Part shown: in pieces, positions 1-14,429 of the stretch
How positions within the stretch are numbered: the stretch's first letter is position 1
How the letters are laid out: each line of letters begins with the position of its first letter
Source of the DNA: a virus
DNA length: 29,264 bases
Virus record (IMG/VR): IMGVR_UViG_3300048672_000155
Location: 1-29,264 of that record
Direction: 5' to 3' (one strand)
Notes under the pieces: model-generated
What the model saw: the letters and a program-made list of their open reading frames with translations, nothing else
Databases searched by the model: none
Told to the model about the DNA's origin: nothing
Translations under genes and position numbers: made by a program

Positions 1-2
1 CT

Positions 3-698
3 ATAAAAGCTATTGAGAAAAAATTAGAAATACCATATAAAGTTATTAAAAGAAAGATAGACGGATACAATATTAGACAACGAAATTATACGGAGTACAC
101 AAATACATCTGAGTTTAAAAATTTAGATTTGAGAAGAAAGACTAAACATATAAATAAAGATATGTTGTTTAAAATGTATGTTGATGAAAAATTATCTTCT
201 ACAACTATATCAGAAATATTAAATCTTTCTAAAGCTGCTGTTGTTAAAATGTTAAATAAGTACAAAATACCTATAAGAGATGTTGAACAATTAAGAAAAA
301 TATCTTCAGCAAAAGCGCAAGGAATAAATATTGATGAATGGGAAAGATTCGTTGTTACAGAAGACCAAAGATTAAGAAAGAAAGAATCTCACAGAAAAAT
401 AATTAGAGATGTTTTAAAAGGTGATGATTATACTTGTCAATGTTGTAATAAGAGAGGTGGGAGATTAGCAGCACATCACATATTAAATTTCAAACAATAT
501 CCTGAATACAGAGAGACTTTTGATAATTTAATAACCCTATGTGAAGATTGTCATAGCCCTACAATAAAAGGAAGCTATCATCATACATTTGGTGTTAGTA
601 ATAATTGTAAAAGAGAGTTAGACGAATATGTAGACAATCTTAATTTTTATACAGGTAAATCAGATTGGGAAACTTTTGAAGAATCAGTAAAACAATAA
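3..698 (+). CDS. HNH homing endonuclease, 5'-truncated by the window edge
   Basis: The frame is open from base 3, so the gene starts upstream; a TTG at 129 is an internal codon rather than a convincing start. The visible part is about 231 residues. A helix-turn-helix-like segment (LSSTTISEILNLSKAAVVKM, bases about 189-248) precedes a C-terminal HNH nuclease with two CxxC zinc knuckles (CQCC at about 437-448, CEDC at about 540-551) and the HH of AAHHIL between them. HNH proteins with DNA-binding repeats of this kind are usually free-standing homing endonucleases in T4-like phages, cutting an allele that lacks them. It lies just upstream of the prohead protease gene, a typical intergenic insertion position. 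The HNH assignment is strong; the homing role is inferred from context. Confidence 0.85.
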   Translation: MKAIEKKLEIPYKVIKRKIDGYNIRQRNYTEYTNTSEFKNLDLRRKTKHINKDMLFKMYVDEKLSSTTISEILNLSKAAVVKMLNKYKIPIRDVEQLRKISSAKAQGINIDEWERFVVTEDQRLRKKESHRKIIRDVLKGDDYTCQCCNKRGGRLAAHHILNFKQYPEYRETFDNLITLCEDCHSPTIKGSYHHTFGVSNNCKRELDEYVDNLNFYTGKSDWETFEESVKQ

Positions 699-701
699 AA
701 T

Positions 702-709
702 GATAAATA
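702..709 (+). promoter_or_regulatory. late promoter, GATAAATA box
   Basis: AAAATGATAAATAGTTTTA lies 31 bases before the gp21 start. The box is one base from T4 late TATAAATA and recurs before most blocks in this window. Predicted start of transcription is about 715-717. Confidence 0.8.
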
Positions 710-740
710 GTTTTAAGAGACTTTAACAGGATAGACAAAC

Positions 741-1427
741 ATGGTACTTATAAAAGAATTTGTTGATATAAAAGATATGGAATTGATAGTGGAGGATGGC
801 GAAAAACTTGGCTGCCATTCAAAAAAAGATTATTATGTTTCCGGCCCTTTTATGTGTGCAGAGGATAGGAACAAAAACGGAAGAGTCTATCCTAGAAGTA
901 TAATGGAAAAGGCTGTTAATAATTATAATGAAAACTTTGTAAAAACTGGTAGAGCAATTGGGGAACTTGACCATCCTCTTGACCAAACGCTAAACCTTAA
1001 GAATGCCTCCCACAAGATCATATCGCTTGGGTTTCGCTCTGAAGACGATCACAAAGTTTATGGGAAAGCCAAGATTCTAAATGAAAATTATTTCCCACTC
1101 GCCAAGATCGCAAAAGGGTTCTTAGAAGAGGGAATAATGTTAGGAATTTCTAGTAGAGGTGTTGGATCACTTGACGATAAGGGAATGGTTGGTGATGACT
1201 TTCAAATTATAAGTCTCGACCTGGTGGCAAATCCGAGTGGTAGTGGTTGTTTTCTGGAGGGAATTTTAGAGAACAAGGAATATTTTTTGGATGGAGAAAA
1301 CCAAATTGTCGAACGCGCAGTAAACAATCTCAAAAAGGCCACCGATCGCAAATATTCTTCAACTGATTCTAAACTTGTGTTGGAATATTTTCAGAACTTT
1401 ATGAACGATTTGAGAGGTAAGCTGTAA
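741..1427 (+). CDS. 21: prohead core protease (T4 gp21-like)
   Basis: This 228-residue protein is the serine protease that matures the T4-type prohead by cutting scaffold, capsid and internal proteins after (L/I)-X-E. The family's catalytic His sits in GELDHP (His78) and the nucleophilic Ser in GISSRG (Ser137 or Ser138); the N-terminal segment YVSGPFMCAEDRNKNGRVYP is also typical, and the length matches T4 gp21. The ATG at 741 has a weak AGGAT ribosome site (728-732) and its own late promoter at 702. It opens the capsid block, followed by a protein with many candidate cleavage sites, then scaffold and major capsid protein. Codon use is more G+C-rich than in the homing endonuclease upstream, as expected for a resident core gene. 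Confidence 0.93.
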   Translation: MVLIKEFVDIKDMELIVEDGEKLGCHSKKDYYVSGPFMCAEDRNKNGRVYPRSIMEKAVNNYNENFVKTGRAIGELDHPLDQTLNLKNASHKIISLGFRSEDDHKVYGKAKILNENYFPLAKIAKGFLEEGIMLGISSRGVGSLDDKGMVGDDFQIISLDLVANPSGSGCFLEGILENKEYFLDGENQIVERAVNNLKKATDRKYSSTDSKLVLEYFQNFMNDLRGKL

Positions 1428-1436
1428 ACAAACTTT

Positions 1437-1503
1437 GAATTGTCGGGGTGATACTAGACCAATGCGATAGCCAAGCTGAACGGTCTACTCACTCTAACAA
1501 TTC
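1437..1503 (+). other. long imperfect inverted repeat after gp21
   Basis: The 131-base gap after gp21 contains nested complementary arms: GAATTGT (1437-1443) with ACAATTC (1497-1503), GGGGTGA (1445-1451) with TCACTCT (1489-1495, two G-U pairs), and TAGACC (1455-1460) with GGTCTA (1482-1487), about 20 base pairs with small interruptions. No T-run follows, so it is not a classical terminator. It may be an RNA-processing or stability element on readthrough mRNA, as it lies upstream of the next late promoter. Confidence 0.5.
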
Positions 1504-1531
1504 ATTAAAAATTAGAAATAAATATTAAAAT

Positions 1532-1539
1532 GATAAATA
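1532..1539 (+). promoter_or_regulatory. late promoter, GATAAATA box
   Basis: AAAATGATAAATAGTTTTA repeats almost exactly the sequence at 698-716 and lies 31 bases before the ATG at 1571. Confidence 0.8.
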
Positions 1540-1570
1540 GTTTTAACAAGTCTAACGAGTGGAGATAATG

Positions 1571-3289
1571 ATGAATAAACTTACCGATCTTGACATGGCG
1601 AATAATCTTTTATGTGAGCACGATGAACTTTCTGAGGGTGTTAAAAAGAAGGTGGAAACTTATATAAACGGAGAATACTTTTCAACATCATTAACAGATA
1701 AGAAAGCGGATCAAGTTAAGCAAGATATGTTGAAAGCTATAGAAGATGGTTCATATAAATCTGGAACTTTTATGACTGGTTCTCTTAAGGATAAAATAGC
1801 GAAGATGATAGAAGATGGTAAAGAGATTAAGATTAAGACTTTTTACGTTAAAGAATCTACCGAAAGTATCAATGAGTCGGAACTTTCAGATGATGCCGCA
1901 AACGCTATTAGAGATGTGTTTTTTAGCAAGCAGTTCGATAAAAAGGTTCCTCGATCAATTATTGCAAGAGTTCTAAAATCTCCGAGATGGATTGATATGT
2001 ATGGGGAAGATGCGATTGAACAGGCTTGGGAAGAGTTGAGAGACGAGGGATATGTTCGATTGATTGGTGATAATTGGGTATGGGGATTGGAATTTGATGA
2101 GGATGTTGATGGTGGAAAAATTATAGAAGACGAGGATAAGGTTGATAGAATTTTCCTTGTTTACCTTAAGGGAGATTTTAAGGAGCCATTTGTTACCGAG
2201 TTTAATAATGTTGAAGTTGCTAAGAGAGAAATGAAAAAACATGATATGAGAGCCAAAGCAGAGATAGTTACTGCCAAGGACCCTCAAGAAGCGATTAATG
2301 TTTGGAAAGAAAAAAATATTGTCAAAGAAGAAGAGACTATAAAAGAAATGTCATCCAAAAGAGATATTTTTATTAGTGATGATGGCGCACTTAAATACTC
2401 TGTCTCTAAAAGTTATGAAACTGATGAGTGGGTAGCAAAAGCATATGTAAATGGAAAGTACGATGAAGGTAAGACTATTTATGAAACAGATAGAGAAAGT
2501 GCAGTAGGATCAGCAAAATATGAAATGACTCGTTGGAATAAATTACATCCGGTTGTCAAAGAAGAAGAGACGATCAAAGAAGGTGAAGAAGAGTATAACA
2601 TTCCAGATACCAATTTATTTGTTGTTGGTTTTGGAAGAGATATTAATGGAAATGTTGGAATAAGAGTTAAAACACCAAATGAGAGAGTCCGTTCGTTGTC
2701 TGTTGGCGATGTGTTTCAAGGTAAGACAGTTAGAGATGGTTATTGGAAAGATTCAAAACCAGAGGAAGTTGCCAAGATTAATGCGGCTCTTATTAGTTAT
2801 GTTGAAAGATTTGTAAAGGGACTTCCACTCAAAAAATATGGTGTTAAAGAAGAAGAGACGATCAAAGAAGTTACAGAATATCAAATAGGTTCAGATATTC
2901 TTTTCCGTAAATCGAGTGAAGATAATGATTGGCTAGCGGGAAAAATATCAACAATTTTGGCTAATGATGTTGTTTTGAAAGATGAAAAAGGAATAACTCA
3001 TATAATCAATAAGCAATTTGTCAGACTTGCTCCTGTTGCTCCTGAAAAAGAAGACGAGTCCATTGAGGAAAGTGAGAGATTTATTAACAAATTTCTTACA
3101 GAGGCTTTTACTTCGGATGATAATAAAAAAGTAAAAATAAAGTTTGATCCGATAAAAGGTGATACATATAAAATAAATGGAAGATCGGCAGAATTTGTAA
3201 CAAAAACAAGAGATAATCGGCTATGTTTTTATATGTTCGATGTTGATGCTCTTGAAAATTTTGATGCCGATGATTTTGTAGATGAATAA
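1571..3289 (+). CDS. candidate prohead polyprotein with repeated protease-site linkers
   Basis: This 572-residue protein has no homologue I recognise. Its striking feature is a near-identical linker, VKEEETIKE, at residues 251-259, 329-337 and 425-433, with a diverged fourth copy EKEDESIEE ending at residue 500. Each ends in I-X-E, the known cleavage rule of gp21-type proteases; further sites are SINE/S at 102 and FLTE/A at 511. Cutting at these would release segments of about 102, 157, 78, 96, 67-78 and 61 residues. Residues 103-180 look like a winged helix (DAIEQAWEELRDEGYVRLIG). The gene lies between protease gp21 and scaffold gp22, with its own late promoter. Start: ATG 1571 is 6 bases after GGAG (1561-1564); ATG 1568 and GTG 1559 fit less well. 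Packaging and cutting are inferred. Confidence 0.75.
   Translation: MNKLTDLDMANNLLCEHDELSEGVKKKVETYINGEYFSTSLTDKKADQVKQDMLKAIEDGSYKSGTFMTGSLKDKIAKMIEDGKEIKIKTFYVKESTESINESELSDDAANAIRDVFFSKQFDKKVPRSIIARVLKSPRWIDMYGEDAIEQAWEELRDEGYVRLIGDNWVWGLEFDEDVDGGKIIEDEDKVDRIFLVYLKGDFKEPFVTEFNNVEVAKREMKKHDMRAKAEIVTAKDPQEAINVWKEKNIVKEEETIKEMSSKRDIFISDDGALKYSVSKSYETDEWVAKAYVNGKYDEGKTIYETDRESAVGSAKYEMTRWNKLHPVVKEEETIKEGEEEYNIPDTNLFVVGFGRDINGNVGIRVKTPNERVRSLSVGDVFQGKTVRDGYWKDSKPEEVAKINAALISYVERFVKGLPLKKYGVKEEETIKEVTEYQIGSDILFRKSSEDNDWLAGKISTILANDVVLKDEKGITHIINKQFVRLAPVAPEKEDESIEESERFINKFLTEAFTSDDNKKVKIKFDPIKGDTYKINGRSAEFVTKTRDNRLCFYMFDVDALENFDADDFVDE
2321..2869 (+). repeat. three copies of a 27-base linker-coding repeat
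   Basis: Copies at 2321-2347, 2555-2581 and 2843-2869 encode VKEEETIKE and differ only at silent positions (gtc/gtt, act/acg, ata/atc). The intervening domains do not resemble each other, so the linker rather than whole modules has been copied or conserved. A fourth, diverged copy ends at 3070. Confidence 0.85.
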
Positions 3290-3312
3290 ATATTAAGTAA
3301 AAATATTAAAAT

Positions 3313-3334
3313 GATAAATAGTTATAGATAAATA
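3313..3334 (+). promoter_or_regulatory. tandem late promoters before the scaffold gene
   Basis: Two GATAAATA boxes, 3313-3320 and 3327-3334, lie 14 bases apart (GATAAATAGTTATAGATAAA). The first has the full AAAAT lead-in common to the other late promoters. It is the only doubled box in the window and would give two staggered starts for the scaffold mRNA. Confidence 0.7.
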
Positions 3335-3360
3335 GTAGAACATCAAAGAAAGGGTTTAAC

Positions 3361-4146
3361 ATGAAAGAACTAATTACCGAGAAGATCAAGGGGCTGTTGA
3401 CTCCGGAGGATCTTGCTATTTTTGAGACAGCGATGAGTAAACTTGTATCTGATTCTGTCGCTCTTCGTGAGACTGAACTCAAAGCAGAATATGACCAGCT
3501 TTCAGAATCATATTGCGCAAAGAGAATAGCAGAAGACACAGAAAAGGTCAAGTCAACCCTCATTGAAGAGTATGACCTGAAACTTGAAAACCTTGAACAG
3601 AAAGTTGTCGCAAGGTTGACATCATTTATTGACCATCTTATCACTGAGCAGATTTCGGATAAAGCTATTGAGAAGATTGCCATTAGTGAAGTTGCTTCCC
3701 CAATAGTTGAGAAGATTCGTAAGATTTATGCCGAGAGCTTCATCACTCTTGACACTGACGGCTCAACTCAAATTAAAGAGTCTGAGAAACGTCTGAAAGC
3801 ATTGGAAACTCAACTCTCAGAAGCAATCTCAAACAAAATGGAACTTCAAGATAAACTAGACCAAACAGCTTCTTATCTCTTGATCTCTGAGAAAACTTCA
3901 GGTCTCATGGAATCACAGAAAGAACGTGTGGTAAAGATGTTCAAAGGTAAAAAGTTCTCTGATGTTTCGGGACAGATCGATAACTTCATTGGCGTTATCA
4001 AGGAAAGTCGAACCTTCCCCAAAACAGAAAAGAAAACAATTGATGCAGTTCTTGATGAATCGGATTGCATTGTTCCCGAAAAGAAAGTAATCGAGGAAAA
4101 TGATTCAAGCCTTGTCGGTGCAGCTTCGAGATTTTTGGAAGAGTAA
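3361..4146 (+). CDS. 22: prohead scaffold core protein (T4 gp22-like)
   Basis: This 261-residue, highly charged, helical protein forms the internal scaffold on which the capsid assembles and is degraded by gp21 before packaging. Coiled-coil-like heptads dominate residues 35-80 and 140-175 (for example EKRLKALETQLSEAISNKME). Several (L/I)-X-E sites are present, and the C-terminus ends in SRFLEE. A hydrophobic central stretch, ARLTSFIDHLITEQISDKAI, and the later MFKGKKFSDVSGQIDNFI resemble gp22 relatives. ATG 3361 follows AAAGGG (3350-3355). The order gp21 - gp22 - gp23 is conserved in the T4 superfamily, apart from the extra large gene inserted here. Identification rests on position, composition and the C-terminal region. 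Confidence 0.85.
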   Translation: MKELITEKIKGLLTPEDLAIFETAMSKLVSDSVALRETELKAEYDQLSESYCAKRIAEDTEKVKSTLIEEYDLKLENLEQKVVARLTSFIDHLITEQISDKAIEKIAISEVASPIVEKIRKIYAESFITLDTDGSTQIKESEKRLKALETQLSEAISNKMELQDKLDQTASYLLISEKTSGLMESQKERVVKMFKGKKFSDVSGQIDNFIGVIKESRTFPKTEKKTIDAVLDESDCIVPEKKVIEENDSSLVGAASRFLEE

Positions 4147-4155
4147 TAATAAAAT

Positions 4156-4163
4156 GATAAATA
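4156..4163 (+). promoter_or_regulatory. late promoter, GATAAATA box, for the major capsid gene
   Basis: AAAATGATAAATAGTTTTA begins six bases after the gp22 stop and leaves an unusually long leader of about 95 bases before gp23. Confidence 0.8.
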
Positions 4164-4182
4164 GTTTTAAGTGCAGTTCAAC

Positions 4183-4230
4183 GATGCTTGTAAGTGTTTT
4201 GATAGTTTAGGATCTAGTTTACAAGTCATC
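4183..4230 (+). promoter_or_regulatory. stem-loop in the major capsid mRNA leader
   Basis: GATGCTTGTAA (4183-4193) is complementary to TTACAAG-T-CATC (4219-4230): 11 base pairs with one bulged T and a 25-base loop. It lies in the late transcript, about 35 bases before the gp23 start and clear of the AAGGAG ribosome site at 4252-4257. A role in mRNA stability or translation is plausible but unproven. Confidence 0.5.
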
Positions 4231-4263
4231 ATAAATCTAATACGTTTTAACAAGGAGAATAGA

Positions 4264-5619
4264 ATGGTAGTAAACAAACGCGAACTTCTCAAAAAATGGG
4301 AAGGCGCAAAAGGCAACATGAGCATTAAGAATATTGCAAACAGTGATATTCGTGGTAACATGGCTGTAATGCTCGAAAACCAAGAGACCACCGATTTTAC
4401 CAACATGAGCCTCCTCCGTGAAGCCTCTGCTGGTGCGATCAATACTGGAACCCTTGGTGGTTATACTGACGGTGTAGCTGCAAGTGATAGCTATATTTTT
4501 AAACCCATCGCCCTCGCTCTCGTTCGGCGCACTTTCCCTGATCTCTTCGCACATAAAGTTTGCGGTGTTCAGGCAATGTCAACCCCTGTCGGTCTCGCTT
4601 ATGCTCTCCGTGCTACTTATGTAGACGGTAAGAATAATGAAGCCGCTTGGGATGTAGTTGATCAATATGCTGGTTATACTGGTTCACAGGTTGGTACTTC
4701 TGGAATTGGCTATACCTCGGCAAACAATGGTACAAATTATAACGGTTTCAACAACACTTCGGCCACTGGTGCTGCCACCTCTGCCGCTGAAGGTTGGACT
4801 CTCTCTGCAGGCCCTTGGGCGATTACCACAACCTCTGGAGCACTCTCTGTTCCTACTGGTTATGGACAGTGGCCTCAGCTTAAAATGAGAATCGATCAGA
4901 AACCAATTCAGGCTACCGAACGTAAACTTGCTGCAACTTACTCACTCGAATCGGCAATGGATGTACGAGCTATGCACGGTCTTGATGTTGAAAAAGAAAT
5001 GCTTAACTTTCTCCAATATGAAATTACCGCTGAAATGGATCGTGAAATTCTTACCGCAATTAAGACCGCTTCTATTGACACTGCTAATGGTGGTGCTGTT
5101 CTAACGTCAATCGATCTTACTGGTAACGGTACAGGCATTGATGGTCGTTGGAGTGGTGAGAAATATATGAACATTATTGCAAGTATTGTTCATCAGGGAA
5201 ATCAAATCGCTGTGGCAACTCGGCGTGGTGCGGGTAACTTTGTCATTGCTTCTCCTGCCATTTGTTCTGCTCTTCAGTGTGCTGGTCATCCTTGGGTAAA
5301 CCTCACCTCGAATGTCAATGCTGCTCACGTTATGGCAAGCGTTGGTAAACTTCAGGGTTCGATGGATATTTATAGGGATCAGTATTCGACAGTTGATTTT
5401 GCTACTGTTGGTTATAAAGGCCCTGGAATTAGTGATGCCGGGGTGATATTCTCGCCTTATGTTTTAGGATTAACCAACCGTGCTATCAACGCGCAGGACT
5501 TCTCTCCGTCAATTGGTGTGTTGTCGCGTTATGCAATATCGACCTCGCTTTTGGGTGCAGGAAGATATTACCGTACACTCAGTTTTTACAACACACCACG
5601 CTTAATCGCTGGTGCATAA
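4264..5619 (+). CDS. 23: major capsid protein (T4 gp23-like)
   Basis: This 451-residue HK97-fold protein forms the head shell. Family hallmarks include KRELLKKWEG at the N-terminus, IANSDIRGNMAVMLENQE (compare T4 IANSKQ..IFENQE), LVRRTFPDLFAHKVCGVQ and MSTPVGLAYALRA. A prohead-protease site, SLLRE/ASAG, lies after residue 53, so the mature protein should start at Ala54, as T4 gp23 is cut at FLTE/A. I chose ATG 4264, six bases after AAGGAG, over the open frame extending back to 4171, which covers the leader hairpin. Codon use is notably richer in C-ending codons than in neighbours, as expected for a very highly expressed gene. A terminator follows directly. Confidence 0.97.
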   Translation: MVVNKRELLKKWEGAKGNMSIKNIANSDIRGNMAVMLENQETTDFTNMSLLREASAGAINTGTLGGYTDGVAASDSYIFKPIALALVRRTFPDLFAHKVCGVQAMSTPVGLAYALRATYVDGKNNEAAWDVVDQYAGYTGSQVGTSGIGYTSANNGTNYNGFNNTSATGAATSAAEGWTLSAGPWAITTTSGALSVPTGYGQWPQLKMRIDQKPIQATERKLAATYSLESAMDVRAMHGLDVEKEMLNFLQYEITAEMDREILTAIKTASIDTANGGAVLTSIDLTGNGTGIDGRWSGEKYMNIIASIVHQGNQIAVATRRGAGNFVIASPAICSALQCAGHPWVNLTSNVNAAHVMASVGKLQGSMDIYRDQYSTVDFATVGYKGPGISDAGVIFSPYVLGLTNRAINAQDFSPSIGVLSRYAISTSLLGAGRYYRTLSFYNTPRLIAGA

Positions 5620-5653
5620 TTGTAAGAATGTAGAGAATTAGGTTGTTGATTGT

Positions 5654-5690
5654 AAAGGAAGAGAGTTTGGTTGCTCTCTTCCTTTTTATT
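5654..5690 (+). terminator. rho-independent terminator after the major capsid gene
   Basis: A perfect 12-bp stem, AAAGGAAGAGAG (5654-5665) with CTCTCTTCCTTT (5674-5685), has an 8-base loop and is followed by a T-rich tail. It is the clearest terminator in the window and separates the capsid block from the accessory island. Confidence 0.92.
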
Positions 5691-5694
5691 TTAC

Positions 5695-5723
5695 TTGACA
5701 ACCTTAAAATAATTTGCTATCTT
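5695..5723 (+). promoter_or_regulatory. sigma70-like promoter for the accessory island
   Basis: TTGACA (5695-5700), a 17-base spacer and TATCTT (5718-5723) give a good host-type promoter directly after the terminator. No other clear sigma70-like promoter was found in the window. It would allow expression before the late programme. Confidence 0.65.
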
Positions 5724-5734
5724 AATATTAAAAT

Positions 5735-5742
5735 GATAAATA
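5735..5742 (+). promoter_or_regulatory. late promoter, GATAAATA box, before the structured RNA
   Basis: AAAATGATAAATAGTTATG follows the sigma70-like promoter. Initiation 6-7 bases after the box falls at 5748-5749, the first base of the structured RNA. Confidence 0.75.
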
Positions 5743-5747
5743 GTTAT

Positions 5748-5851
5748 GAGTCGTGGAAAGCTCACCCAAAAAATTAAAACAATCACTGTGAATCGACACT
5801 ATATCTTTTTGCATCTACTTCCACGGCTCTTGCAAAAAGAAGTGATTGTTT
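5748..5851 (+). ncRNA. pseudoknotted leader RNA or non-coding RNA
   Basis: Three long helices can form. Helix C pairs 5804-5813 with 5831-5840 (10 bp, perfect). Helix B pairs 5777-5787 with 5841-5851 (11 bp, perfect) and continues directly from C on the 3' side. Helix A pairs 5748-5758 with 5819-5829 (11 bp, one G-U), and its 3' strand lies wholly inside the 17-base loop of hairpin C, making a pseudoknot. A small GTG/CAC hairpin (5788-5790 with 5797-5799) may fill the B-C junction. The element ends 13 bases before the downstream ATG. I recognise no known riboswitch, ribozyme or toxin-antitoxin RNA. It could control translation of the nuclease gene or be a stable RNA. Confidence 0.72.
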
Positions 5852-5864
5852 ATTTTAGGAATTT

Positions 5865-7259
5865 ATGAAAAAAGGATTAACAAAATTAACTACAAAAGAT
5901 TTTATTAAACAAGCTACTAAAGTTCATGGTAAAACATATGATTATTCTCTTGTTGATTATAAAGGTACTAAGAAAAAAGTAAAAATAATTTGTAGAAAAC
6001 ATGGAATTTTTGAACAAGTTTATAGAGATCATGTTACACTTAAAATGAATTGTCCTGTTTGTTTTAAAGAGAGAAGAATTAATTCTAACCCTAAATTAAC
6101 AACAAAAGAGTTTATTAAAAGAGCCAAAGAAGTTCATGGAGATCGTTATGATTATTCTAAGGTTGATTATGTTAATTCTGGTGTTAAGGTTTGTATAATT
6201 TGTAAAGAACATGGAGAGTTTTGGCAATATCCTTTAAATCATACAAGAGCAAAAATGAAATGCCCCCCTTGTGCCATAATTCAAAGAGCTAATAAACGTA
6301 GGGGGACAACAGAACAATTTATTACAAAGGCTAAATTAACTCATGGGAACAAATATGATTACTCTAAATCTATTTTTACAGGAGTTGATGATAAATTAAT
6401 TATCATATGTCACAAGTTAGACAAAGATGGAAAAGAGCATGGAGAATTTAAACAAAGTGCTTATAGTCATGTTAATGGGTCTGGATGTTTTAGATGTGTT
6501 CATAAAAAATCCAACACTCAACCAAAAATTCTAACAACAAAAGGTTTTATAGAAAAGGCTGTTAAAATACATGGAAATCGTTATGACTATTCTAAGATTG
6601 ATTATAAAGGATATAATGTCCATGTTTGTATAATTTGTTTAGAGCATGGGGAATTTTGGCAAAGACCAGCAAGACATTTAACAAGTGAGGCTGATTGTCC
6701 AAAATGTGCAAAAATACAACACGCTTTAGATGCTTTTTTAACTCAAGAGGAATTTATAGAAAGTGCTAAAGAAGTTCATGGAGATCGTTATGATTATTCT
6801 CTTGTCAAATATACAGGAATGAAAAATAAGGTTACTATAAAATGTTCAAATGGTCATATATTTAAACAATCAGCAGGAACTCATATAAATGGTCACGGAT
6901 GTCCTAAATGTAACAGAAGTAAAGGCGAGATAATTATAGAAGATTGGTTGATAAAAAATAATATAAGGTACAAGCACGAGAAAACTTTTAAAGGATGTAA
7001 AGATAAAGGATTTTTAAGATTTGATTTTTACTTAATAGATTTTAATATGTGTGTAGAATTTGATGGTAAACAGCATTTTGAAGTTATAGGCAAATGGAAA
7101 AATAATGGTGATCTTGAAGGAACTATAAGAAGAGACAAAATAAAGACCAATTACTGCAAATCAAATAACATAAAACTTCTACGCTTCAATTACAAACAAT
7201 CAAAAGAAGAAATAACAAATAGATTGACTTTTAACTTCAAATCAACTATATTACAATGA
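5865..7259 (+). CDS. zinc-ribbon repeat protein with PD-(D/E)XK (Vsr-like) nuclease, probable homing endonuclease
   Basis: The 464-residue protein has five repeats of about 60-70 residues starting near 13, 83, 152, 228 and 297. Each has the pattern F-I-x-x-A...HG-x-x-YDYS...K-V-x-IIC...HG-x-F...H...C-P-x-C and probably binds one zinc. The C-terminus (residues 352-450) is a Vsr/PD-(D/E)XK-type nuclease: RFDFYL (Asp387), CVEFDGKQHF (Glu398, Asp400, Lys402), then a helix and IKLLRFNY. Repeat-plus-nuclease proteins of this kind occur in phages and giant viruses and are thought to be mobile endonucleases, with the repeats giving DNA specificity. ATG 5865 follows TAGGA (5856-5860). The gene is AT-rich relative to gp23 and overlaps the next nuclease gene by four bases. 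Confidence 0.8.
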   Translation: MKKGLTKLTTKDFIKQATKVHGKTYDYSLVDYKGTKKKVKIICRKHGIFEQVYRDHVTLKMNCPVCFKERRINSNPKLTTKEFIKRAKEVHGDRYDYSKVDYVNSGVKVCIICKEHGEFWQYPLNHTRAKMKCPPCAIIQRANKRRGTTEQFITKAKLTHGNKYDYSKSIFTGVDDKLIIICHKLDKDGKEHGEFKQSAYSHVNGSGCFRCVHKKSNTQPKILTTKGFIEKAVKIHGNRYDYSKIDYKGYNVHVCIICLEHGEFWQRPARHLTSEADCPKCAKIQHALDAFLTQEEFIESAKEVHGDRYDYSLVKYTGMKNKVTIKCSNGHIFKQSAGTHINGHGCPKCNRSKGEIIIEDWLIKNNIRYKHEKTFKGCKDKGFLRFDFYLIDFNMCVEFDGKQHFEVIGKWKNNGDLEGTIRRDKIKTNYCKSNNIKLLRFNYKQSKEEITNRLTFNFKSTILQ

Positions 7260-7345
7260 TGAAAACTAAATTACAAACTTTTATAGAACGTGCCAAATTG
7301 ATTCATGGAGATCGTTATGATTATTCTAAGGTTGACTATGTTAAT
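6135..7345 (+). repeat. 42-base repeat shared by the two adjacent nuclease genes
   Basis: Bases 6135-6176 (repeat 2 of the first nuclease) and 7304-7345 (repeat 1 of the second) match at 41 of 42 positions, and a partial copy starts at 6777. Both encode HGDRYDYSKVDYVN. The near-identity is greater than elsewhere in the domain repeats and suggests recent duplication or gene conversion. Confidence 0.8.
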
Positions 7346-8965
7346 GGAAAGACCAAGGTTATGATAATTTGTAGAAAAGAAGATCATGGTGAATTTATGC
7401 AGACACCGGATTCTCATATTTTTCAGAAGGCAAAGTGTCCGATCTGCAGCTATGAGAACCGTAACGAGAGTAGGATGGTTGATTGGCAAGAGGTTTTAAA
7501 AAGGATAGAAGAGGCTCATAAGGAAGATTTTAAATATTTGGATTTTTCTCAAGTTGTTTATAAAAATAGTCAAACGAAGATAAAGATAATCTGTAAAAAA
7601 GAAGATCATGGAGAATTTTGGCAGAGACCATCAGACACTTGTAGAGGAGTTAGTTGTCCTAAGTGCGGTAGAGATAAAACTAATAAGGCAATGACAGGAA
7701 CGACAGAGAAGTTTATAGAGGCTGCCAATAAGGTTCATAACAATATATATGATTATTCTAAGGTTGATTATGTTGGTGCTTATACGAAGGTTGAGATTAT
7801 ATGCGAACGACACGGATCATTTTTTCAGAACCCAGCAGACCATGTGAATAAAGAATCTAAATGTCCGAAGTGTTATAATGAGAGAAGGAGCAGTATTGGT
7901 AGATCAAATAAAGAAGAATTTATAAACAGTGGTATGATTAAGTATAATGGTACAGTTAAATATGACTTAGTAGAATATGTAAATTCTAAAACCAAAGTTA
8001 CGTTGATATGCGATAAAGGCCATCAATATGAGCAGACACCTAACGGTCATCTAAACGGCTATGGTTGTCATATGTGTTGTAATATAGGAGTTTCAAAATT
8101 AGAAAAAGAAGTTTATGATTTTATTAAGATTTATTACAATGACGCTATATCAAACACAAACGAAATATTATCGCCAAAAGAACTTGATATTTATATTCCA
8201 TATATTAAACTTGCTATAGAATTTAATGGTTTATATTGGCATAGTTCTGAATACAAAGATAAAAACGATCATAAATTAAAAACTGATATGTGCGAAAAAC
8301 TTGGAATCCACCTTGTACAAATATTTGAAGATGATTGGAAATATAAACAAGATATAGTAAAGTCTCGCCTATTAAATCTGATGGGTAAGAACGATAATAA
8401 AATAGCCGCACGTAAATGTGTTATTAAATTAGTAGATCAAAAAGTAGGCAAACAATTTCTTCAACAAAATCATTTACAGGGATACACTTCTTTTACTATT
8501 GGTTGTGGATTATTCTTTAATGATGAGTTAGTTTCTCTTATGACTTTTGGAAAGAGGCGAGTTTGTTTAGGTAAGAAAGAATCACAAGAGGGTGAATTTG
8601 AATTGATGAGATTTGCTAGTAAACTTAATACTTCTGTTATGGGTGCGGCAAATAAACTCTTTAAATATTTTGTAGACAATTATAAGCCAAAACATATAAT
8701 ATCTTACGCTGATAGATGTTGGACAATGAATAATGGATCTACTGTTTATGATAAGTTAGGATTTACTTTAGAAGGATTAACACCGCCGAATTATTATTAT
8801 GTTGTTGGAGATAAAAGAAAACATAGATTTGGTTTTAGAAAGGCAAAGTTAGTTGAGGATGGTTACGATGCTTCAATGACTGAGAGTGAAATTATGCAGG
8901 ATCGTGGAATACCTAAGATATATAATTCCGGCAATCTTAAATATTCCTTGACTTTCCCATCATAA
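7256..8965 (+). CDS. zinc-ribbon repeat protein with Vsr-like (EDxHD-type) endonuclease and C-terminal GNAT-like domain
   Basis: The 569-residue protein begins with four zinc-ribbon repeats (starting near 9, 80, 152 and 221; CPIC, CPKC, CPKC and CHMC pairs) like those of the preceding gene. Residues 280-372 form a Vsr-like nuclease with ELDIYIP (Glu309, Asp311), AIEFNGLYWHSS (Glu322, His329) and H339-K-L-K-T-D344, the EDxHD pattern described for phage homing endonucleases. Residues 388-530 have a different fold, with MRFASKLNTSVMGAANKLF, VYDKLGFTLEG and KHRFGFRK reminiscent of GNAT-type acyltransferases. That last assignment is tentative. The ATG overlaps the previous stop (ATGA), so the two nucleases are probably translationally coupled, both behind the structured RNA. 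The repeats probably recognise DNA. Confidence 0.8.
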   Translation: MMKTKLQTFIERAKLIHGDRYDYSKVDYVNGKTKVMIICRKEDHGEFMQTPDSHIFQKAKCPICSYENRNESRMVDWQEVLKRIEEAHKEDFKYLDFSQVVYKNSQTKIKIICKKEDHGEFWQRPSDTCRGVSCPKCGRDKTNKAMTGTTEKFIEAANKVHNNIYDYSKVDYVGAYTKVEIICERHGSFFQNPADHVNKESKCPKCYNERRSSIGRSNKEEFINSGMIKYNGTVKYDLVEYVNSKTKVTLICDKGHQYEQTPNGHLNGYGCHMCCNIGVSKLEKEVYDFIKIYYNDAISNTNEILSPKELDIYIPYIKLAIEFNGLYWHSSEYKDKNDHKLKTDMCEKLGIHLVQIFEDDWKYKQDIVKSRLLNLMGKNDNKIAARKCVIKLVDQKVGKQFLQQNHLQGYTSFTIGCGLFFNDELVSLMTFGKRRVCLGKKESQEGEFELMRFASKLNTSVMGAANKLFKYFVDNYKPKHIISYADRCWTMNNGSTVYDKLGFTLEGLTPPNYYYVVGDKRKHRFGFRKAKLVEDGYDASMTESEIMQDRGIPKIYNSGNLKYSLTFPS

Positions 8966-9020
8966 AATATTATCTTTAATCTTTACCTAACATTATTTAA
9001 ACTATTCAAAGGATCTCTAA

Positions 9021-10424
9021 ATGTCAGAAGTATCTCAGAATTATGATAACAAAGCCATAACGGAATCAGGACTTTCAAACGAGGAGATAGTAGATCGTTG
9101 TATTAAATTGAATTACCGCTATTTAAAACTTGGATTGATGGGGCCGATGTATGGTGCTAAGAATGGGTTGAGAACGAGTCTGAAGGATGGGAGATTACTT
9201 TATAGTGTTTCTGAGGATAAAAAGTTCATAGGATTTCTTCTTTGGAATATTTTAAAAAGGACAAATACTATTGATATAAGAAAGGTTGCTATTGAAGAGG
9301 ATTTTAAATATCAAGGTTTTGGAAAGAAGTTATATGAGCAGGTGGTTAATATTTGTAAAGAGAAGAATATTAATTTCATAAGAGCCAAAGCATCAAACCT
9401 TAACACAGATTCTCATAAATGGTATACTGGTTTGGGGTTTATAAAGGTTGATGAAGGAGATAACACAGTAACTTTTATTAAGGAATTGAACGGCAAGAAA
9501 TATGAACCAATAGTAAAAAAAGATAATAGTGTTAAGCCAGTTAAATTAGAATGGGTGATAGGTGAAGAAGCTCCTAAAGAGTTTGAAGATATTGTTAATT
9601 TTTTTGATGAAGAGGAAAGAAAAAATGATAACGGGGAAGTGACTCCTTGGATATTTAAAAATGATTTGACTCTATTTAAAAAACAATATGATAGATTATG
9701 CAGGGGAACAATTTTACCAACAAATCGCCACATTGCTTGTTTAGACCTTATGGAATTTTATCATAAGCAGATGTGGTTTATGAATGGAATGGCATCTATA
9801 TTGGAATGGCAGAACAACAAAAAGCATATAATAAATAACAGGCTTAAATATGTTGATCTGCAGCCGAGAGCATTGAGAAGGTATTTTAGAATTTGTTATA
9901 TGGTGCCTAATTTGTTTCAAGATAATGTTGCTCGTTATATGTCTTCCGAGATTGTTGGAAATTTAATATATGATCCTTTTGCGGGGTTCGGTGGTAGAAT
10001 GTTGGGTGTTTCTTCTATGGGTAAACAATACATAGGAAATGATATTAACGCTCTATCTGTCAACGCAAACAATCAAATTATAAGAGATATTGGTTTAAAG
10101 AATGTTGAAGTTTTGTGGAGGGATAGTAGAAATTTTGAAATAGAGTGTGACGGTCTTATAACTTCGCCTCCGTTTTATAATAAAGATGTTTACAAAGAAG
10201 ATAGTGAATTTAAGTCTCTTGATGATTTTAAAACATTTATTCATGATATTTTTTGTAAAGTTAAAGTAAGAGATAAAGCAATCATAGACTTTAAAGAAAA
10301 TAAACACTGCTCTCTTGATGATTTTGAAAGTGCTTTGCCGTTTAAAAATATAGAGAGAAAACAACATAATTTTAACGGTATGAAAAATCACGGATCTATA
10401 CATACTTGGTTCTATTGCTCATAA
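9021..10424 (+). CDS. GNAT acetyltransferase - DNA methyltransferase fusion
   Basis: This 467-residue protein joins two enzymes. Residues 30-155 are a GNAT domain: KFIGFLLWNI, IDIRKVAIEEDF, the acetyl-CoA loop YQGFGKKL (97-104) and WYTGLGFIKV. Residues 270-467 are a Rossmann methyltransferase: DPFAGFGGRMLG (318-329, S-adenosylmethionine loop), GNDIN (339-343) and the catalytic TSPPFY (381-386), an S-P-P-F variant typical of amino-methyltransferases acting on adenine N6 or cytosine N4. The middle (RLKYVDLQPRALRRYFRICY) may contact substrate. Chemistry on DNA bases is the simplest reading; whether both domains act on one base is unknown. It follows the nuclease pair by 55 bases and closes the accessory island. 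ATG 9021 follows AAAGGAT. Domain calls are firm, substrate is not. Confidence 0.8.
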   Translation: MSEVSQNYDNKAITESGLSNEEIVDRCIKLNYRYLKLGLMGPMYGAKNGLRTSLKDGRLLYSVSEDKKFIGFLLWNILKRTNTIDIRKVAIEEDFKYQGFGKKLYEQVVNICKEKNINFIRAKASNLNTDSHKWYTGLGFIKVDEGDNTVTFIKELNGKKYEPIVKKDNSVKPVKLEWVIGEEAPKEFEDIVNFFDEEERKNDNGEVTPWIFKNDLTLFKKQYDRLCRGTILPTNRHIACLDLMEFYHKQMWFMNGMASILEWQNNKKHIINNRLKYVDLQPRALRRYFRICYMVPNLFQDNVARYMSSEIVGNLIYDPFAGFGGRMLGVSSMGKQYIGNDINALSVNANNQIIRDIGLKNVEVLWRDSRNFEIECDGLITSPPFYNKDVYKEDSEFKSLDDFKTFIHDIFCKVKVRDKAIIDFKENKHCSLDDFESALPFKNIERKQHNFNGMKNHGSIHTWFYCS

Positions 10425-10491
10425 AATCTTCTCAATAAGCCTCAAAAACGCGCCAAATTCTTAAAGTTTTATTACCCAAAATTAATAAAAT

Positions 10492-10499
10492 GATAAATA
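10492..10499 (+). promoter_or_regulatory. late promoter, GATAAATA box
   Basis: AAAATGATAAATAGTTTAA lies 79 bases before the next start and reopens late transcription after the accessory island. Confidence 0.78.
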
Positions 10500-10502
10500 G
10501 TT

Positions 10503-10526
10503 TAATAGCCAGAAGATCGGTTATTA
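10503..10526 (+). promoter_or_regulatory. leader stem-loop
   Basis: TAATAGCC (10503-10510) pairs with GGTTATTA (10519-10526), 8 bp with one G-U and an 8-base loop, at the expected 5' end of the late transcript. The 154-base gap between 10425 and 10578 otherwise holds only the late promoter and the ribosome site. Confidence 0.4.
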
Positions 10527-10578
10527 TTCTTTTTGTCATTTATTTCACTATTTTATAAACCTTTTCATAGGAGTTAGC

Positions 10579-10872
10579 ATGGATTTTAGGGAATTTTTTA
10601 TCAGAGAAGCACAAGAAGAAGATGAAGCACAGTATGACGAGAAAGAACTTGAAGCTGGTAGAAAAGAAGAAGAAGAGCATACAGAAATTTATGATATTTT
10701 TGAGACGTTTATTAAAGAGAACGGATTAGAATCTCCTATGTCAAAAAAAGAGTTTATTGATATGTTAGTTAAAAAGCATCTCTCAAAAGATCCTACATAT
10801 TACTCAAAAGAATTAGAAACAGATGAGCAAACAGAAGAAACCACAGATAACAATGAGACAGAGGAGAACTAA
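10579..10872 (+). CDS. small acidic protein, candidate internal head protein
   Basis: This 97-residue protein is very rich in Glu and Asp and has no recognisable enzyme motif. It begins MDFREFFIREAQEEDE, matching the pattern of the T4 capsid-targeting peptide (MKTYQEFIAEA in the internal proteins), with a gp21-type site I-R-E/A at residues 8-11. Residues 37-77 may form a helix pair (IYDIFETFIKENGLESPMSK). ATAGGAG (10567-10573) places the start at ATG 10579, and it has its own late promoter. The next gene starts one base after this stop, so the two form an operon. Packaging into the head is inferred from the N-terminus only. Confidence 0.7.
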   Translation: MDFREFFIREAQEEDEAQYDEKELEAGRKEEEEHTEIYDIFETFIKENGLESPMSKKEFIDMLVKKHLSKDPTYYSKELETDEQTEETTDNNETEEN

Positions 10873-10873
10873 G

Positions 10874-11506
10874 ATGAAAACACTTATGGAAACAGCTAAT
10901 TACTTTTTGGATGTTGTTGAAGAAAAGGAAGTTATAAGCGAAGGTTATTATGAGACCGTTAAGAGAGTAGAAGCCGCACCTCTTCAGGATAGGATAGATG
11001 CTAGAAACGATTATATGAAGGATATGCGTGACAATCCTGAGATCGTTGGCGAGAGGATTGGTTGGCTTCTCGATGGAAATTACGGAAAAGAGGAGATGGA
11101 AAGAGGGATAAAAATTGTTGATAGTCCTCGAATGAATAGGATAGCTGCTTTGTCGTCTATGATAGCAGTCCTGGAATGGTCATGTACTCCTGTCGGTGCT
11201 ATTGCTGCTTGGAAGAAATTGACACCAGAAGAGCAATCTAAAGTCGATGGAGAAATTGCAAAGACTATTAAAAAGTTTGAAGATAATCGTAAAGAGGAAT
11301 TTAAAGAAGGTGAAGAAAAAACTCTTATGTTTGCAGATACGATAAATGGAGTTTTTGATATGACAAGACAAGATGTTATTGATATGGTTAAAGCAAATCC
11401 ATATTTTTCTAATCCTGAAGATGTTGCGTTTGTTGATAGTGAAGGAACAGAATACACAGGTTATGATGTTCTTGAAATGGCAGGAGTAGAGAACGAAGAA
11501 GTTTAA
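10874..11506 (+). CDS. conserved-looking virion-associated protein of unknown function
   Basis: The 210-residue protein starts MKTLMETANYFLDVVEEKEV, followed by candidate prohead-protease sites including VISE/G near residue 23. The rest is a mixed helical domain (for example RIGWLLDGNYGKEEMERGIK and GAIAAWKKLTPEEQSKVDGE), which I do not recognise. ATG 10874, preceded by GAGGAG (10861-10866), is preferred over the open frame reaching back to 10823, which overlaps the previous gene and has no good ribosome site. A late promoter follows directly after the stop. Function unknown; head or tail association is only suggested by the late operon. Confidence 0.65.
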   Translation: MKTLMETANYFLDVVEEKEVISEGYYETVKRVEAAPLQDRIDARNDYMKDMRDNPEIVGERIGWLLDGNYGKEEMERGIKIVDSPRMNRIAALSSMIAVLEWSCTPVGAIAAWKKLTPEEQSKVDGEIAKTIKKFEDNRKEEFKEGEEKTLMFADTINGVFDMTRQDVIDMVKANPYFSNPEDVAFVDSEGTEYTGYDVLEMAGVENEEV

Positions 11507-11511
11507 AAGAT

Positions 11512-11519
11512 AATAAATA
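11512..11519 (+). promoter_or_regulatory. variant late promoter, AATAAATA box
   Basis: GATAATAAATAGTTCTGA keeps the downstream AAATAGTT of the other late promoters but has A for G at the first box position. Confidence 0.6.
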
Positions 11520-11552
11520 GTTCTGATTATATTTGTTTGAGTCAGAACTATT
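11516..11552 (+). terminator. inverted repeat overlapping the late promoter, possible terminator
   Basis: AATAGTTCTGA (11516-11526) and TCAGAACTATT (11542-11552) pair perfectly over 11 bp with a 15-base loop and are followed by TTAATTTAATTTTA. The left arm overlaps the promoter, so the hairpin forms only in readthrough RNA, where it could end or process the upstream message. Confidence 0.5.
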
Positions 11553-11582
11553 TTAATTTAATTTTATAACAAAGGAGAAACA

Positions 11583-11957
11583 ATGCCAAACTTTACGTTA
11601 GATCATTTGACGAAATATCTCACAGAAGACGAGAGTGTAGAAGATCAAAAGGCAACCAATGATGTAGAAGCTGGATTTACAATGGAGCCAAAGGAAGACG
11701 GAAGCTATACAATTTTTAAAGGTTCTAAAAAGATTGTTGACGTTTCATATACAAATAAGAAAAATGATGAGTCTGAAGATTTTGAAGTTGCTCAAGAAAA
11801 TCCAGATAATTATGATGTTTACCTATCAAATGTGGCAGATGTGATTTACTCCAAGGAGTTTGAAAAGAAGTTGGAAGCTCTTGGTTTTGATAATATTATT
11901 TCTACAGACGATCAAGTTATTTCTGATGAGCCTGTCGAAAAAGTAGATGAGGAGTAA
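11583..11957 (+). CDS. small acidic late protein, unknown function
   Basis: This 124-residue acidic protein begins MPNFTLDHLTKYLTEDES, with an L-T-E/D protease-like site at residues 13-15, and then a compact mixed alpha/beta region (DGSYTIFKGSKKIVDVSYTN, then YDVYLSNVADVIYSKEFEKK). AAAGGAG (11571-11577) fixes the ATG. It has its own late promoter and is followed two bases later by another small gene. I do not recognise the fold; an internal head protein is possible given the N-terminal pattern, but the evidence is weaker than for its neighbours. Confidence 0.65.
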   Translation: MPNFTLDHLTKYLTEDESVEDQKATNDVEAGFTMEPKEDGSYTIFKGSKKIVDVSYTNKKNDESEDFEVAQENPDNYDVYLSNVADVIYSKEFEKKLEALGFDNIISTDDQVISDEPVEKVDEE

Positions 11958-11959
11958 CC

Positions 11960-12187
11960 ATGAAATTTAGAGATTTTTTATTGGAGAGTAGTTCGGAAGT
12001 TGATGCAGAAGGTAAAAGGATTGCTAAAATGTTGGGTCTTGATTTCATATCATTTTGGAAGGATATGGGTAAATATCTTTTTAATGATAGACAAACGGGA
12101 TCTAGTGTTACGGGTAGCGATTTTGCAGAGACTAAAAGTAAAGTAGAAGCGAGTAGAGCTAAATTTAAAGGCAAGAAGGTTTATTAA
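11960..12187 (+). CDS. small protein with capsid-targeting-like N-terminus
   Basis: The 75-residue protein starts MKFRDFLLESSSEVDAEG. The first nine residues closely match the T4 capsid-targeting pattern (M-K-x-x-x-x-F-x-x-E), and L-L-E/S at residues 7-9 would be a gp21 cleavage site leaving a 66-residue basic product (ending FKGKKVY). T4 internal proteins are small, basic and injected with DNA, which this product resembles. GAGGAG (11949-11954) fixes the ATG, two bases after the previous stop. A role as an ejected internal protein is inference; no enzymatic motif is visible. Confidence 0.68.
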   Translation: MKFRDFLLESSSEVDAEGKRIAKMLGLDFISFWKDMGKYLFNDRQTGSSVTGSDFAETKSKVEASRAKFKGKKVY

Positions 12188-12210
12188 CGAAGTTTTAAAG
12201 GAGTATAAAA

Positions 12211-12918
12211 TTGGCCTATCAATATTACTACGCCCACACGATCAGAAACGTAACAACTTCTATCATGAATTTGTTAAAGGATCAAATTGTCAAGAAGTAT
12301 GATAAAAATGGAAATGTTGTTAAAGAGATTATTTGTCCTTTAGAATTTGGTACTCCGGAAAAAAGTGTGCAGTATCTTTTACAAGGAGAGTATCATGACA
12401 AAAATGGTATTGAAGTAGGCCAACGATCTTATCAAAAGTTTCCTAGAATTAGTTTGGCTTTTGAGGGAATGACATATGATGCGGATCGGGTTACAGGTTC
12501 TAATGATACTCGTGAATGGTTGGCCGAATCTTTTGCTCTAAGTGGTACAGATTCACAAAGTATAGTAACCGATCTTTCTCCTTCTCCTTGGTCTTTTAAT
12601 TACTCTATAAAGATCAGAACAGACGGAATTGATTATCTCTGCCAACTATTAGAAAACATATTAGTTTATTGGAATCCTATTAGAGCAATTAGAGTTAAAG
12701 AGTTCTCTGGTATGAATATTGAGAGAGAATTGATAACAAGGATAACAGGAGTGTCGCCAACAATTACAACAGAGATTGCCGAGAGTGAAGTTAAACAATC
12801 TGCAGTTGATATTAATTTAGAAGTTGCTGGATTTTTATATCGACCTATCTCATCGGCAAAAGTAATAAAGTTGGTAAATTCTCGATACTATACAAACGGA
12901 GATATAAATAGCCTATGA
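12211..12918 (+). CDS. 15: tail sheath stabiliser / tail completion protein (T4 gp15-like)
   Basis: This 235-residue protein should form the ring at the head-proximal end of the tail that locks sheath and tube and joins the tail to the neck. Similarity to T4 gp15 is seen in YYYAHTIRNVTTSIMNLL (gp15 begins GYFYNSSFRRYATLMGDL), KFPRISLAFEGMTYDADR, and SPSPWSFNYSIKIRTDGIDY followed by LLENILVYWNP (gp15: NPSPIKMIYELSIFTRYEDD, then VEQILPYFQP), and in VAGFLYRP near the C-terminus (gp15: VNGWMYPP). The start is TTG 12211, supported by AAAGGAG upstream (12196-12202); no in-frame ATG precedes the conserved N-terminus. The next gene overlaps it by four bases (ATGA). Confidence 0.88.
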   Translation: MAYQYYYAHTIRNVTTSIMNLLKDQIVKKYDKNGNVVKEIICPLEFGTPEKSVQYLLQGEYHDKNGIEVGQRSYQKFPRISLAFEGMTYDADRVTGSNDTREWLAESFALSGTDSQSIVTDLSPSPWSFNYSIKIRTDGIDYLCQLLENILVYWNPIRAIRVKEFSGMNIERELITRITGVSPTITTEIAESEVKQSAVDINLEVAGFLYRPISSAKVIKLVNSRYYTNGDINSL

Positions 12919-13094
12919 TTTCTATATTACAAACATATTATCAAACAAGTGGCTATCCTATAACTTCTGCTGGTCTCTCTGCCGTTCCTATATCTGCCGC
13001 ACCTTCTACATATTTGACAAGTGGAACATATGTAGAAGGAGATCAGAGCTATGTTTATTGGCATTCTACTATATACGTTTCTGGAACAAATTAA
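12915..13094 (+). CDS. small Ser/Thr/Tyr-rich protein
   Basis: A 59-residue frame starts with an ATG overlapping the gp15 stop (ATGA) and ends 20 bases before the small terminase gene. It begins MISILQTYYQTSGY and ends YVSGTN, and is rich in Ser, Thr, Tyr and Gly with almost no charged residues, unlike random frames in this AT-rich DNA. Upstream GGAGATATAAATAGCCT offers a plausible ribosome site. Unknown function; the fit to the overlap pattern and the filling of an otherwise empty 196-base gap argue that it is real. Confidence 0.6.
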   Translation: MISILQTYYQTSGYPITSAGLSAVPISAAPSTYLTSGTYVEGDQSYVYWHSTIYVSGTN

Positions 13095-13114
13095 ACCGTT
13101 AAGGAAAAATTGAT

Positions 13115-13630
13115 ATGGATGATGAAAATAGGGATTCTTTCGAGAAGATTTCGGATGCTTTAGGAACAACATTTGAACAAGAGGCAGAACCAGTTACGAA
13201 AGAGTTAGAAGTTGTACAAGAGAAAAAATCTGCTTTGACTGTTTCTGAGGATTTTGGAAGTGTTATGTTTGAGGATCAGGAGTATTTGAGAAACGATTTA
13301 AAAGACTTGATAGATTCTTCAAAGAGAGTCATGGCAAAGCTCGAACAAGACATTAAGATAGGTGCAAATCCTCGAAGCCATGAAGTGTATAGCGAGATGG
13401 TTTCAAGCACTCTAAGAGCCTATAACGAGCTAAGGGAGTTAAATAAATCAATGTTCGATGCCAGATTTAAAGTTAATGGTCTAAAGGGTGGTAAAAAGAG
13501 TACAAAAAGTGGTGATGGAACTATTGAATTAACCGCTGCTCAACTATCTGAATTAATGTCTAAGGCTAAAAAAGATAGTAGCACGAATGCGATAGAAGTC
13601 GATTTTAAAGTAAGTGAGGATAAAAAATAA
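13115..13630 (+). CDS. 16: terminase small subunit (T4 gp16-like)
   Basis: The 171-residue protein should form the ring that recognises phage DNA and stimulates the TerL ATPase. The match to T4 gp16 lies in the centre: SEDFGSVMFEDQEYLRNDLK (gp16: [20 protein letters not shown]) and NPRSHEVYSEMVSSTLRAYN with ELRELNKSM (gp16: [20 protein letters not shown] and EILKLHKDM), a long helical hairpin at residues 50-120. The N-terminus is acidic, the C-terminus Lys-rich, and the length is close to that of gp16 (164). AAGGA (13101-13105) precedes ATG 13115. The next gene begins in its stop codon (TAATG). Confidence 0.88.
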   Translation: MDDENRDSFEKISDALGTTFEQEAEPVTKELEVVQEKKSALTVSEDFGSVMFEDQEYLRNDLKDLIDSSKRVMAKLEQDIKIGANPRSHEVYSEMVSSTLRAYNELRELNKSMFDARFKVNGLKGGKKSTKSGDGTIELTAAQLSELMSKAKKDSSTNAIEVDFKVSEDKK

Positions 13631-14423: not shown

Positions 14424-14429
14424 TTGATA

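Follow-up and report, generated by a model that had tools for sequence, protein, structure and literature searches.

A candidate precursor of several internal head proteins, with a copied linker, beside the prohead protease gene of a divergent T4-like phage

The IMG/VR virus record IMGVR_UViG_3300048672_000155, whose 29,264 bases we call the window here, holds clustered head and tail genes of a divergent T4-like phage. The closest named relatives are T4-like phages of Synechococcus and Prochlorococcus (identity up to ~43% for gp21 and 34% for gp23), and in IMG/VR the closest record found is locus L035, with identities of 49% (gp23), 43% (gp21), and 31% (gp22). Between the genes of the prohead core protease gp21 and of a gp22-like scaffold lies an open reading frame (ORF) for 572 amino acids (aa), which may encode a precursor of several internal head proteins. 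A first-pass annotation, made from the sequence alone, had placed this gene between protease and scaffold under a late promoter, and so it stands: gp21 lies 5', gp22 lies 3', and the ORF is preceded by the late-promoter-like site TGATAAATAG (we take the T4 late consensus to be TATAAATA). Additional exact copies of TGATAAATAG lie 5' of gp21 (701), gp22 (3312), and gp23 (4155), and the window holds 15 such matches with at most one mismatch, against 6.5 expected. Position and promoter-like site thus point to a late gene of the head cluster, as T4 internal-protein genes are. The ORF has alternative in-frame starts at ATG 1568 and GTG 1559, with GGAG at 1561–1564. The presumed cutter belongs to the S77 family by its profile and by H78 and S137, which are invariant among nine sequences and presumably catalytic.

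The nonapeptide VKEEETIKE occurs three times in the chain and a diverged copy, EKEDESIEE, once, with the letters and at the positions first reported (copies starting at residues 251, 329, and 425, the diverged one ending at 500). In 1000 composition shuffles of the protein the longest exact repeat was 3–6 residues, against nine observed, and 1.0% of shuffles held a 9-mer as near to the linker as EKEDESIEE and with an [IL]xE end. At the DNA level, the three exact copies agree at 24–26 of 27 nucleotides (nt), and the 20-nt blocks on either side of all copies have only 2–11 nt in common, which is background. Codon choice agrees at eight of nine positions between copies 2 and 3 (P ~0.02 for at least this agreement if independently encoded); for the other two pairs the figures are 7/9 and 6/9, which alone is not unusual. 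Because the identity ends sharply at the edges of the linker, a short joint has most likely been copied between unrelated segments without adjoining sequence. By eye, a fifth copy, diverged and longer by one inserted residue, may be present at 93–102 (VKESTESINE). Among 1,039 screened ORFs with 200 aa or more, six have a 7-mer that occurs at least three times at least 40 residues apart; by eye, the other five resemble tail or fibre proteins or low-complexity ORFs on the reverse strand. Less exceptional are two-copy 7-mers with LxE, which a screen of 1,923 ORFs (120 aa or longer) met in the long tail-like ORFs of loci L139, L145, and L152, and which count against the arrangement being unique.

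The T4 gp21 protease is specific for L/I-X-E, and rules are likewise described for the capsid-targeting sequence (CTS) of its substrates (PMC9026906). Isoleucine at P3 and glutamate at P1 are common to the three exact linkers and the diverged one. Strict [IL]xE sites number ten in the 572-aa protein (16, 22, 102, 186, 259, 305, 337, 433, 500, and 511), nine of them N-terminal or on a proposed joint and one (305) within segment 3. The first-pass annotation had all joints ending in (I/L)-X-E, which is so at every joint proposed, SINE/S at 102 and FLTE/A at 511 among them; its list omitted 305, 16, and 22. Enrichment of sites was rejected as evidence, ten standing against 8.3 ± 2.5 in shuffles (P ~0.30); since shuffles give a similar count, it is the position of the sites and not their number that is informative. 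Their spacing is wide: the pieces between strict sites have a median of 61 aa here and of 14 aa in the window's gp22, where 18 sites fall in 261 aa, so that the chain lacks the dense sites of a core protein. With (I/L)xE at every proposed joint, it has potential protease sites where a viral polyprotein has its sites, between the products. The gp23-like protein has a single strict site, LLRE/A at 53.

The segments so delimited (Table 1) are mutually unlike, as the first-pass annotation had held: in 126 comparisons, which included other proteins of the window, the best z was 3.9 and the best between two segments ~3.2, on which we rejected the idea that they are copies of one another. A shared pattern at the starts of segments 4 and 5, EY.I....LF, was not significant (P 0.13). 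Structure prediction, put forward earlier as a check on each segment, succeeded in part. The whole-chain model, made without an alignment, had a mean predicted local distance difference test score (pLDDT) of 43 and was too poor for use; residues 103–250, folded alone and again without an alignment, gave two compact domains (mean pLDDT 71, predicted template modelling score 0.43), with helices and a hairpin at 104–171 and a beta-beta-alpha-beta-alpha unit at 193–249. Several unrelated domains, as in polyvalent proteins, are thus indicated both by this model and by the unlikeness of the segments. The only run below pLDDT 50 in the model is residues 176–190, and because that run holds I-I-E 184–186, the model favours an extra joint there. 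The first-pass annotation had suspected a split of segment 2 at an I-I-E near residue 190; the I-I-E is at 184–186, and its predicted place, a disordered stretch between two modelled domains, suits the suggestion. Fold comparison of residues 103–173 gave Z 6.0–7.4 and root-mean-square deviations of 2.2–3.6 over 60–70 aligned residues, below the tool's level of trust. All 50 rows listed in this comparison aligned to the first domain of the 103–250 model, and nearly all were winged-helix domains, so that the modelled domain appears winged-helix-like; the winged helix is a common small fold. Foldseek with the 103–250 model, viral models included, gave no match at E<=0.001.

Table 1. Features of the 572-aa gene and its surroundings, in window positions
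Feature	Position	Strand	Basis
Prohead core protease, gp21/S77 family (presumed cutter)	741..1427	+	Pfam PF03420 E=1.3e-25; PHROG 207 E=1.1e-49
Late-promoter-like site TGATAAATAG	1531..1540	+	exact match
Candidate multi-segment precursor, 572 aa, ATG start	1571..3289	+	ORF call
Possible N-terminal propeptide, residues 1–22 (LCE16/H, LSE22/G)	1571..1636	+	sites; without the aromatic positions of a T4-type CTS
Segment 1, residues 23–102, end SINE/S	1637..1876	+	site position
Segment 2a, residues 103–186: winged-helix-like (104–171), then disordered stretch to KIIE/D	1877..2128	+	model
Segment 2b, residues 187–259: beta-beta-alpha-beta-alpha (193–249) and linker copy 1	2129..2347	+	model, site
Linker copy 1, VKEEETIKE, residues 251–259	2321..2347	+	exact repeat
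Segment 3, residues 260–337, contains TIYE305	2348..2581	+	site position
Linker copy 2, VKEEETIKE, residues 329–337	2555..2581	+	exact repeat
Segment 4, residues 338–433	2582..2869	+	site position
Linker copy 3, VKEEETIKE, residues 425–433	2843..2869	+	exact repeat
Segment 5, residues 434–500, diverged linker at end	2870..3070	+	site position
Diverged linker EKEDESIEE, residues 492–500	3044..3070	+	19/27 nt common to each other copy
Internal CTS-like peptide SERFINKFLTE, residues 501–511	3071..3103	+	likeness to MDFREFFIRE (10579) and MRFKKFLTE (L116)
Segment 6, residues 512–572	3104..3286	+	site position
gp22-like scaffold	3361..4146	+	Pfam PF25623 E=1.2e-12; PHROG 237 E=1.3e-11
gp23-like major head protein	4264..5619	+	PHROG 138 E=3.1e-80

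The T4 CTS comprises the first ten residues of a protein, with positions 4 and 7 serving targeting and positions 8 and 10 processing (PMC9026906). Ahead of the last unit of the chain, residues 502–511 (ERFINKFLTE/A) match MDFREFFIRE, the start of another window gene, at F3, F7, I/L8, and E10. In 558,267 residues of non-overlapping ORFs from the loci, 64 such CTS-like motifs are internal, or ~0.07 per 572 aa, and one arises in 10% of shuffles of the 572-aa protein; with caution, residues 501–511 might be read as a remnant from a time when the last unit was an internal protein in its own right. Set against an N-terminal CTS of 10–19 residues with an (I/L)xE end, the N-terminus of the chain, MNKLTDLDMANNLLCE/HDELSE/G, has LCE16 and LSE22 without the aromatic pattern at positions 4 and 7. 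By eye, CTS-like starts occur in the window at 10579, 11583, 11960, 13950, and 22378, among them MDFREFFIRE/A (10579), MKFRDFLLE/S (11960), and MKSFESFYMINE/G; judged by these starts, the genes possibly form a set of stand-alone head cargo genes. A strict CTS regular expression found only four starts, one of them that of a gp21.

Searches for relatives of the protein returned nothing, with the qualification that such searches may hide near-identical records. The whole protein had no tblastn match at E<=10 in 50,697 phage records and no homologue in IMG/VR, and the 11 stretches of GTDB genome contigs that matched a pattern included no relative. Singly, three of seven segments had no match among phages at E<=10 and four had matches only at E 0.9–10; segments 2a and 4 had no homologue in IMG/VR, three segments found nothing in a PDB sequence search, and local phmmer with the segments found nothing but self below E 0.8 among 9,402 ORFs from the loci. 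The linker pattern KEEETIKE is present at 17 loci in IMG/VR, with one match each, and none resembles the 572-aa gene. At useful E-values the protein matched no family of Pfam, PHROG, or NCBIfam, the gp22, gp67, and gp68 core families included, and effector or peptidase domains were absent from it in Pfam, PHROGs, NCBIfam, and PADLOC.

In T4-like relatives, the slot between gp21 and gp22 is usually empty, with few exceptions. In a first set, 86 of the 89 loci examined (window included) have gp21 and gp22 or gp23, and the next head gene after gp21 mostly follows within 200 nt; in a second, 76 of 80 have gp21 and gp23. Inserts in the first set are ORFs of 107 and 145 aa in L035, a GIY-YIG-like ORF (by eye) in L039, and a 335-aa protein in L075 (6645–7652) with a clear CTS, MLSFKQYLRE/A; in L040, a 129-aa ORF overlaps the end of gp21. 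An ORF flagged in L030 was rejected as an insert, being likely that locus's own unrecognised gp22. In the second set, L115 has an extra ORF of 70 aa and so does L114, which is one contig with L035, whereas L123 did not yield a resolved gp22. In three distant relatives gp21 or gp22 is itself extended or interrupted. L116 gp21 carries a C-terminal zinc ribbon after QLNE/Q; L115 gp21, a 287-aa form, has a C-terminal extension with a KOW-like stretch (weak, E 0.04), and L115 gp22 has a zinc ribbon inside; a partial gp22 in L117 has CPxCG pairs (by eye). These foreign domains lie within 1941–2804 and 3179–4066 in L115, 4889–5641 in L116, and 45–308 in L117. Zinc-ribbon patterns are rare, with one in 155 gp21 ORFs and one in 153 gp22 ORFs. 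Between portal and gp21, L116 also encodes (3824–4528) a 234-aa protein that starts MRFKKFLTE/Q and weakly matches a ParB-like nuclease (E 0.03). Because relatives hold inserted genes and appended or inserted domains here, the protease/scaffold neighbourhood is an occasional cargo site in T4-like phages.

The heads of T4-type phages bring in proteins for host takeover and against host defence. The architecture of the 572-aa gene fits a polyprotein of internal head proteins: it adjoins an S77/gp21 protease gene, has I-x-E joints between unlike, domain-sized segments, a disordered I-I-E joint, and a targeting-like peptide, and its relatives hold cargo in the neighbourhood. We put the probability that it encodes a gp21-cut precursor of several internal head proteins, in ~seven small unrelated units, at about 0.5, slightly on the favourable side. 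Its packaging, cutting, and ejection we infer as follows. To judge by its position and promoter-like site, the chain would be made late with protease and scaffold and would enter the prohead core together with gp22; the gp21-type protease, as motif and neighbourhood suggest, would cut after the glutamate of the (I/L)xE joints; and the released units, of ~60–96 residues, would be kept with the DNA as internal proteins, of which some may be ejected. The copied 27-nt linker would be a ready-made joint, through which an added unit could be packaged and cut without its own gene or targeting sequence, and the last unit may be a former stand-alone internal protein that still bears its targeting peptide. 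More tentatively, the gene could be a true T4-type head polyprotein, a single late gene for six or seven cargo proteins that enter as one chain and that the protease frees within the prohead at copied cassettes which also take up new cargo.

Several observations weigh against a cleaved precursor. The [IL]xE count is not above that of shuffles; TIYE305/T places a site inside segment 3; the N-terminus lacks a clear T4-type CTS; most units are without a reliable fold, as the whole-protein mean pLDDT shows, and are mostly neutral to acidic; a codon measure, which separates no gene classes here, does not mark the gene as highly expressed; and no collection searched yielded a homologue in which constraint on the linker glutamates or domain shuffling would be visible. 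Copied linkers rich in E and K could, moreover, be plain flexible spacers in a multi-domain protein that remains one chain in head or cell, like an uncleaved polyvalent protein. Such phage proteins with 2–15 domains have been described (PMC5512222), (I/L)xE is a weak, unenriched motif, and copying of the linker alone requires no protease; spacers do not, however, explain why every copy, even the diverged one, retains I at P3 and E at P1, why (I/L)xE joints are also present at 102, 186, and 511, or why a protease gene is adjacent, and we regard an uncut chain as unlikely.

Cutting without cargo is an account to which we also give little credence. An accessory core or scaffold protein of the gp67, gp68, or gp22 kind would aid core building, be cut at many sites, and leave the head in pieces, and the gene does sit between protease and scaffold; in T4, gp22, gp67, and gp68 are cut into several fragments that mostly leave the head, gp22 being cut up and largely removed (PMC9026906, PMC5694885). 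The sparse sites of the chain, the lack of a scaffold family match, and the two compact modelled domains argue against this role. Finally, a fast-evolving late protein of other function, its repeat a by-product of slippage or gene conversion, would suit the searches, which turned up neither homologue nor function; slippage does not readily produce three exact, sharply bounded copies spaced 234 and 288 nt apart between unrelated segments, and we consider this account very improbable.

A precursor of internal proteins would resemble several known systems without coinciding with any. T4 IPI–IPIII and Alt are likewise late head-core cargo beside a gp21-type protease, which processes them, with (I/L)xE sites and small diverse domains, and the peptide before the last unit of the chain recalls their CTS. 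The T4 internal proteins are separate and diverse, the CTS alone being conserved (PMC3012670), each a single gene with an N-terminal CTS; here ~seven units in one chain share a copied linker. With T4 gp22, gp67, and gp68 the chain would share cutting by gp21 at several sites, and it shares their gene neighbourhood; unlike them, it has domain-sized spacing and no match to their families. Polyvalent proteins of phages and conjugative elements also combine several unlike domains, are thought to travel with DNA, and are likened by their describers to RNA-virus polyproteins (PMC5512222); they have known enzyme domains and some an embedded peptidase, whereas here no domain is recognised and a separate prohead protease would cut. 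The inner head proteins of SPN3US and phiKZ share a Glu-specific prohead protease, propeptides cut at several sites, and ejection; there the cuts remove propeptides (13 of the 14 sites mapped in nine SPN3US proteins come from N-terminal propeptide removal), unlike the cuts proposed here between units (PMC10052503). DarB of P1 has an N-terminal capsid signal (PMC9024508). In searches of open-licence PMC papers for phage head polyproteins, CTS proteins, and prohead-protease cargo, no T4-type polyprotein of internal proteins strung on a repeated prohead-protease linker came to light, and the first-pass annotation knew of none; multi-site cutting as such is not new, given T4 gp22, gp67, and gp68, and what would be new is the retention of several domain-sized products. 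If one gene can supply many head-delivered proteins in equal amounts by way of a linker that is copied and cut by the protease, this is a new form of cargo expansion; it predicts exact virion peptides and would be a model for sending several proteins into a head on a single targeting signal.

The window has other features. Between gp21 and the 572-aa ORF, 1430–1500 is by eye an odd non-coding stretch unlike its A+T-rich surroundings; an Rfam scan of window positions 1–20000 gave no match, so it is no known RNA. At 5865–8965, two adjacent ORFs have repeated 'HGDRYDYSKVDY'-like units with treble-clef zinc-finger matches (DUF4379) and are endonuclease-like. The product of 9021–10424, a GNAT acetyltransferase (PF00583 E=6.2e-10) fused to a DNA methyltransferase-like domain (PF02086 E=5.5e-5), is possibly a DNA-modifying enzyme. 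The large terminase gene (14424–17152) is broken into two overlapping ORFs, the TAA of the first overlapping the ATG of the second (15026). The first ends in an intein-like start; in the second, a GIY-YIG endonuclease comes before intein-like and terminase sequence (intein by eye). The arrangement resembles that of fractured genes that carry a split intein. At 24311–25957, a tail-region protein includes a VanY-like carboxypeptidase domain (E=9.9e-11).
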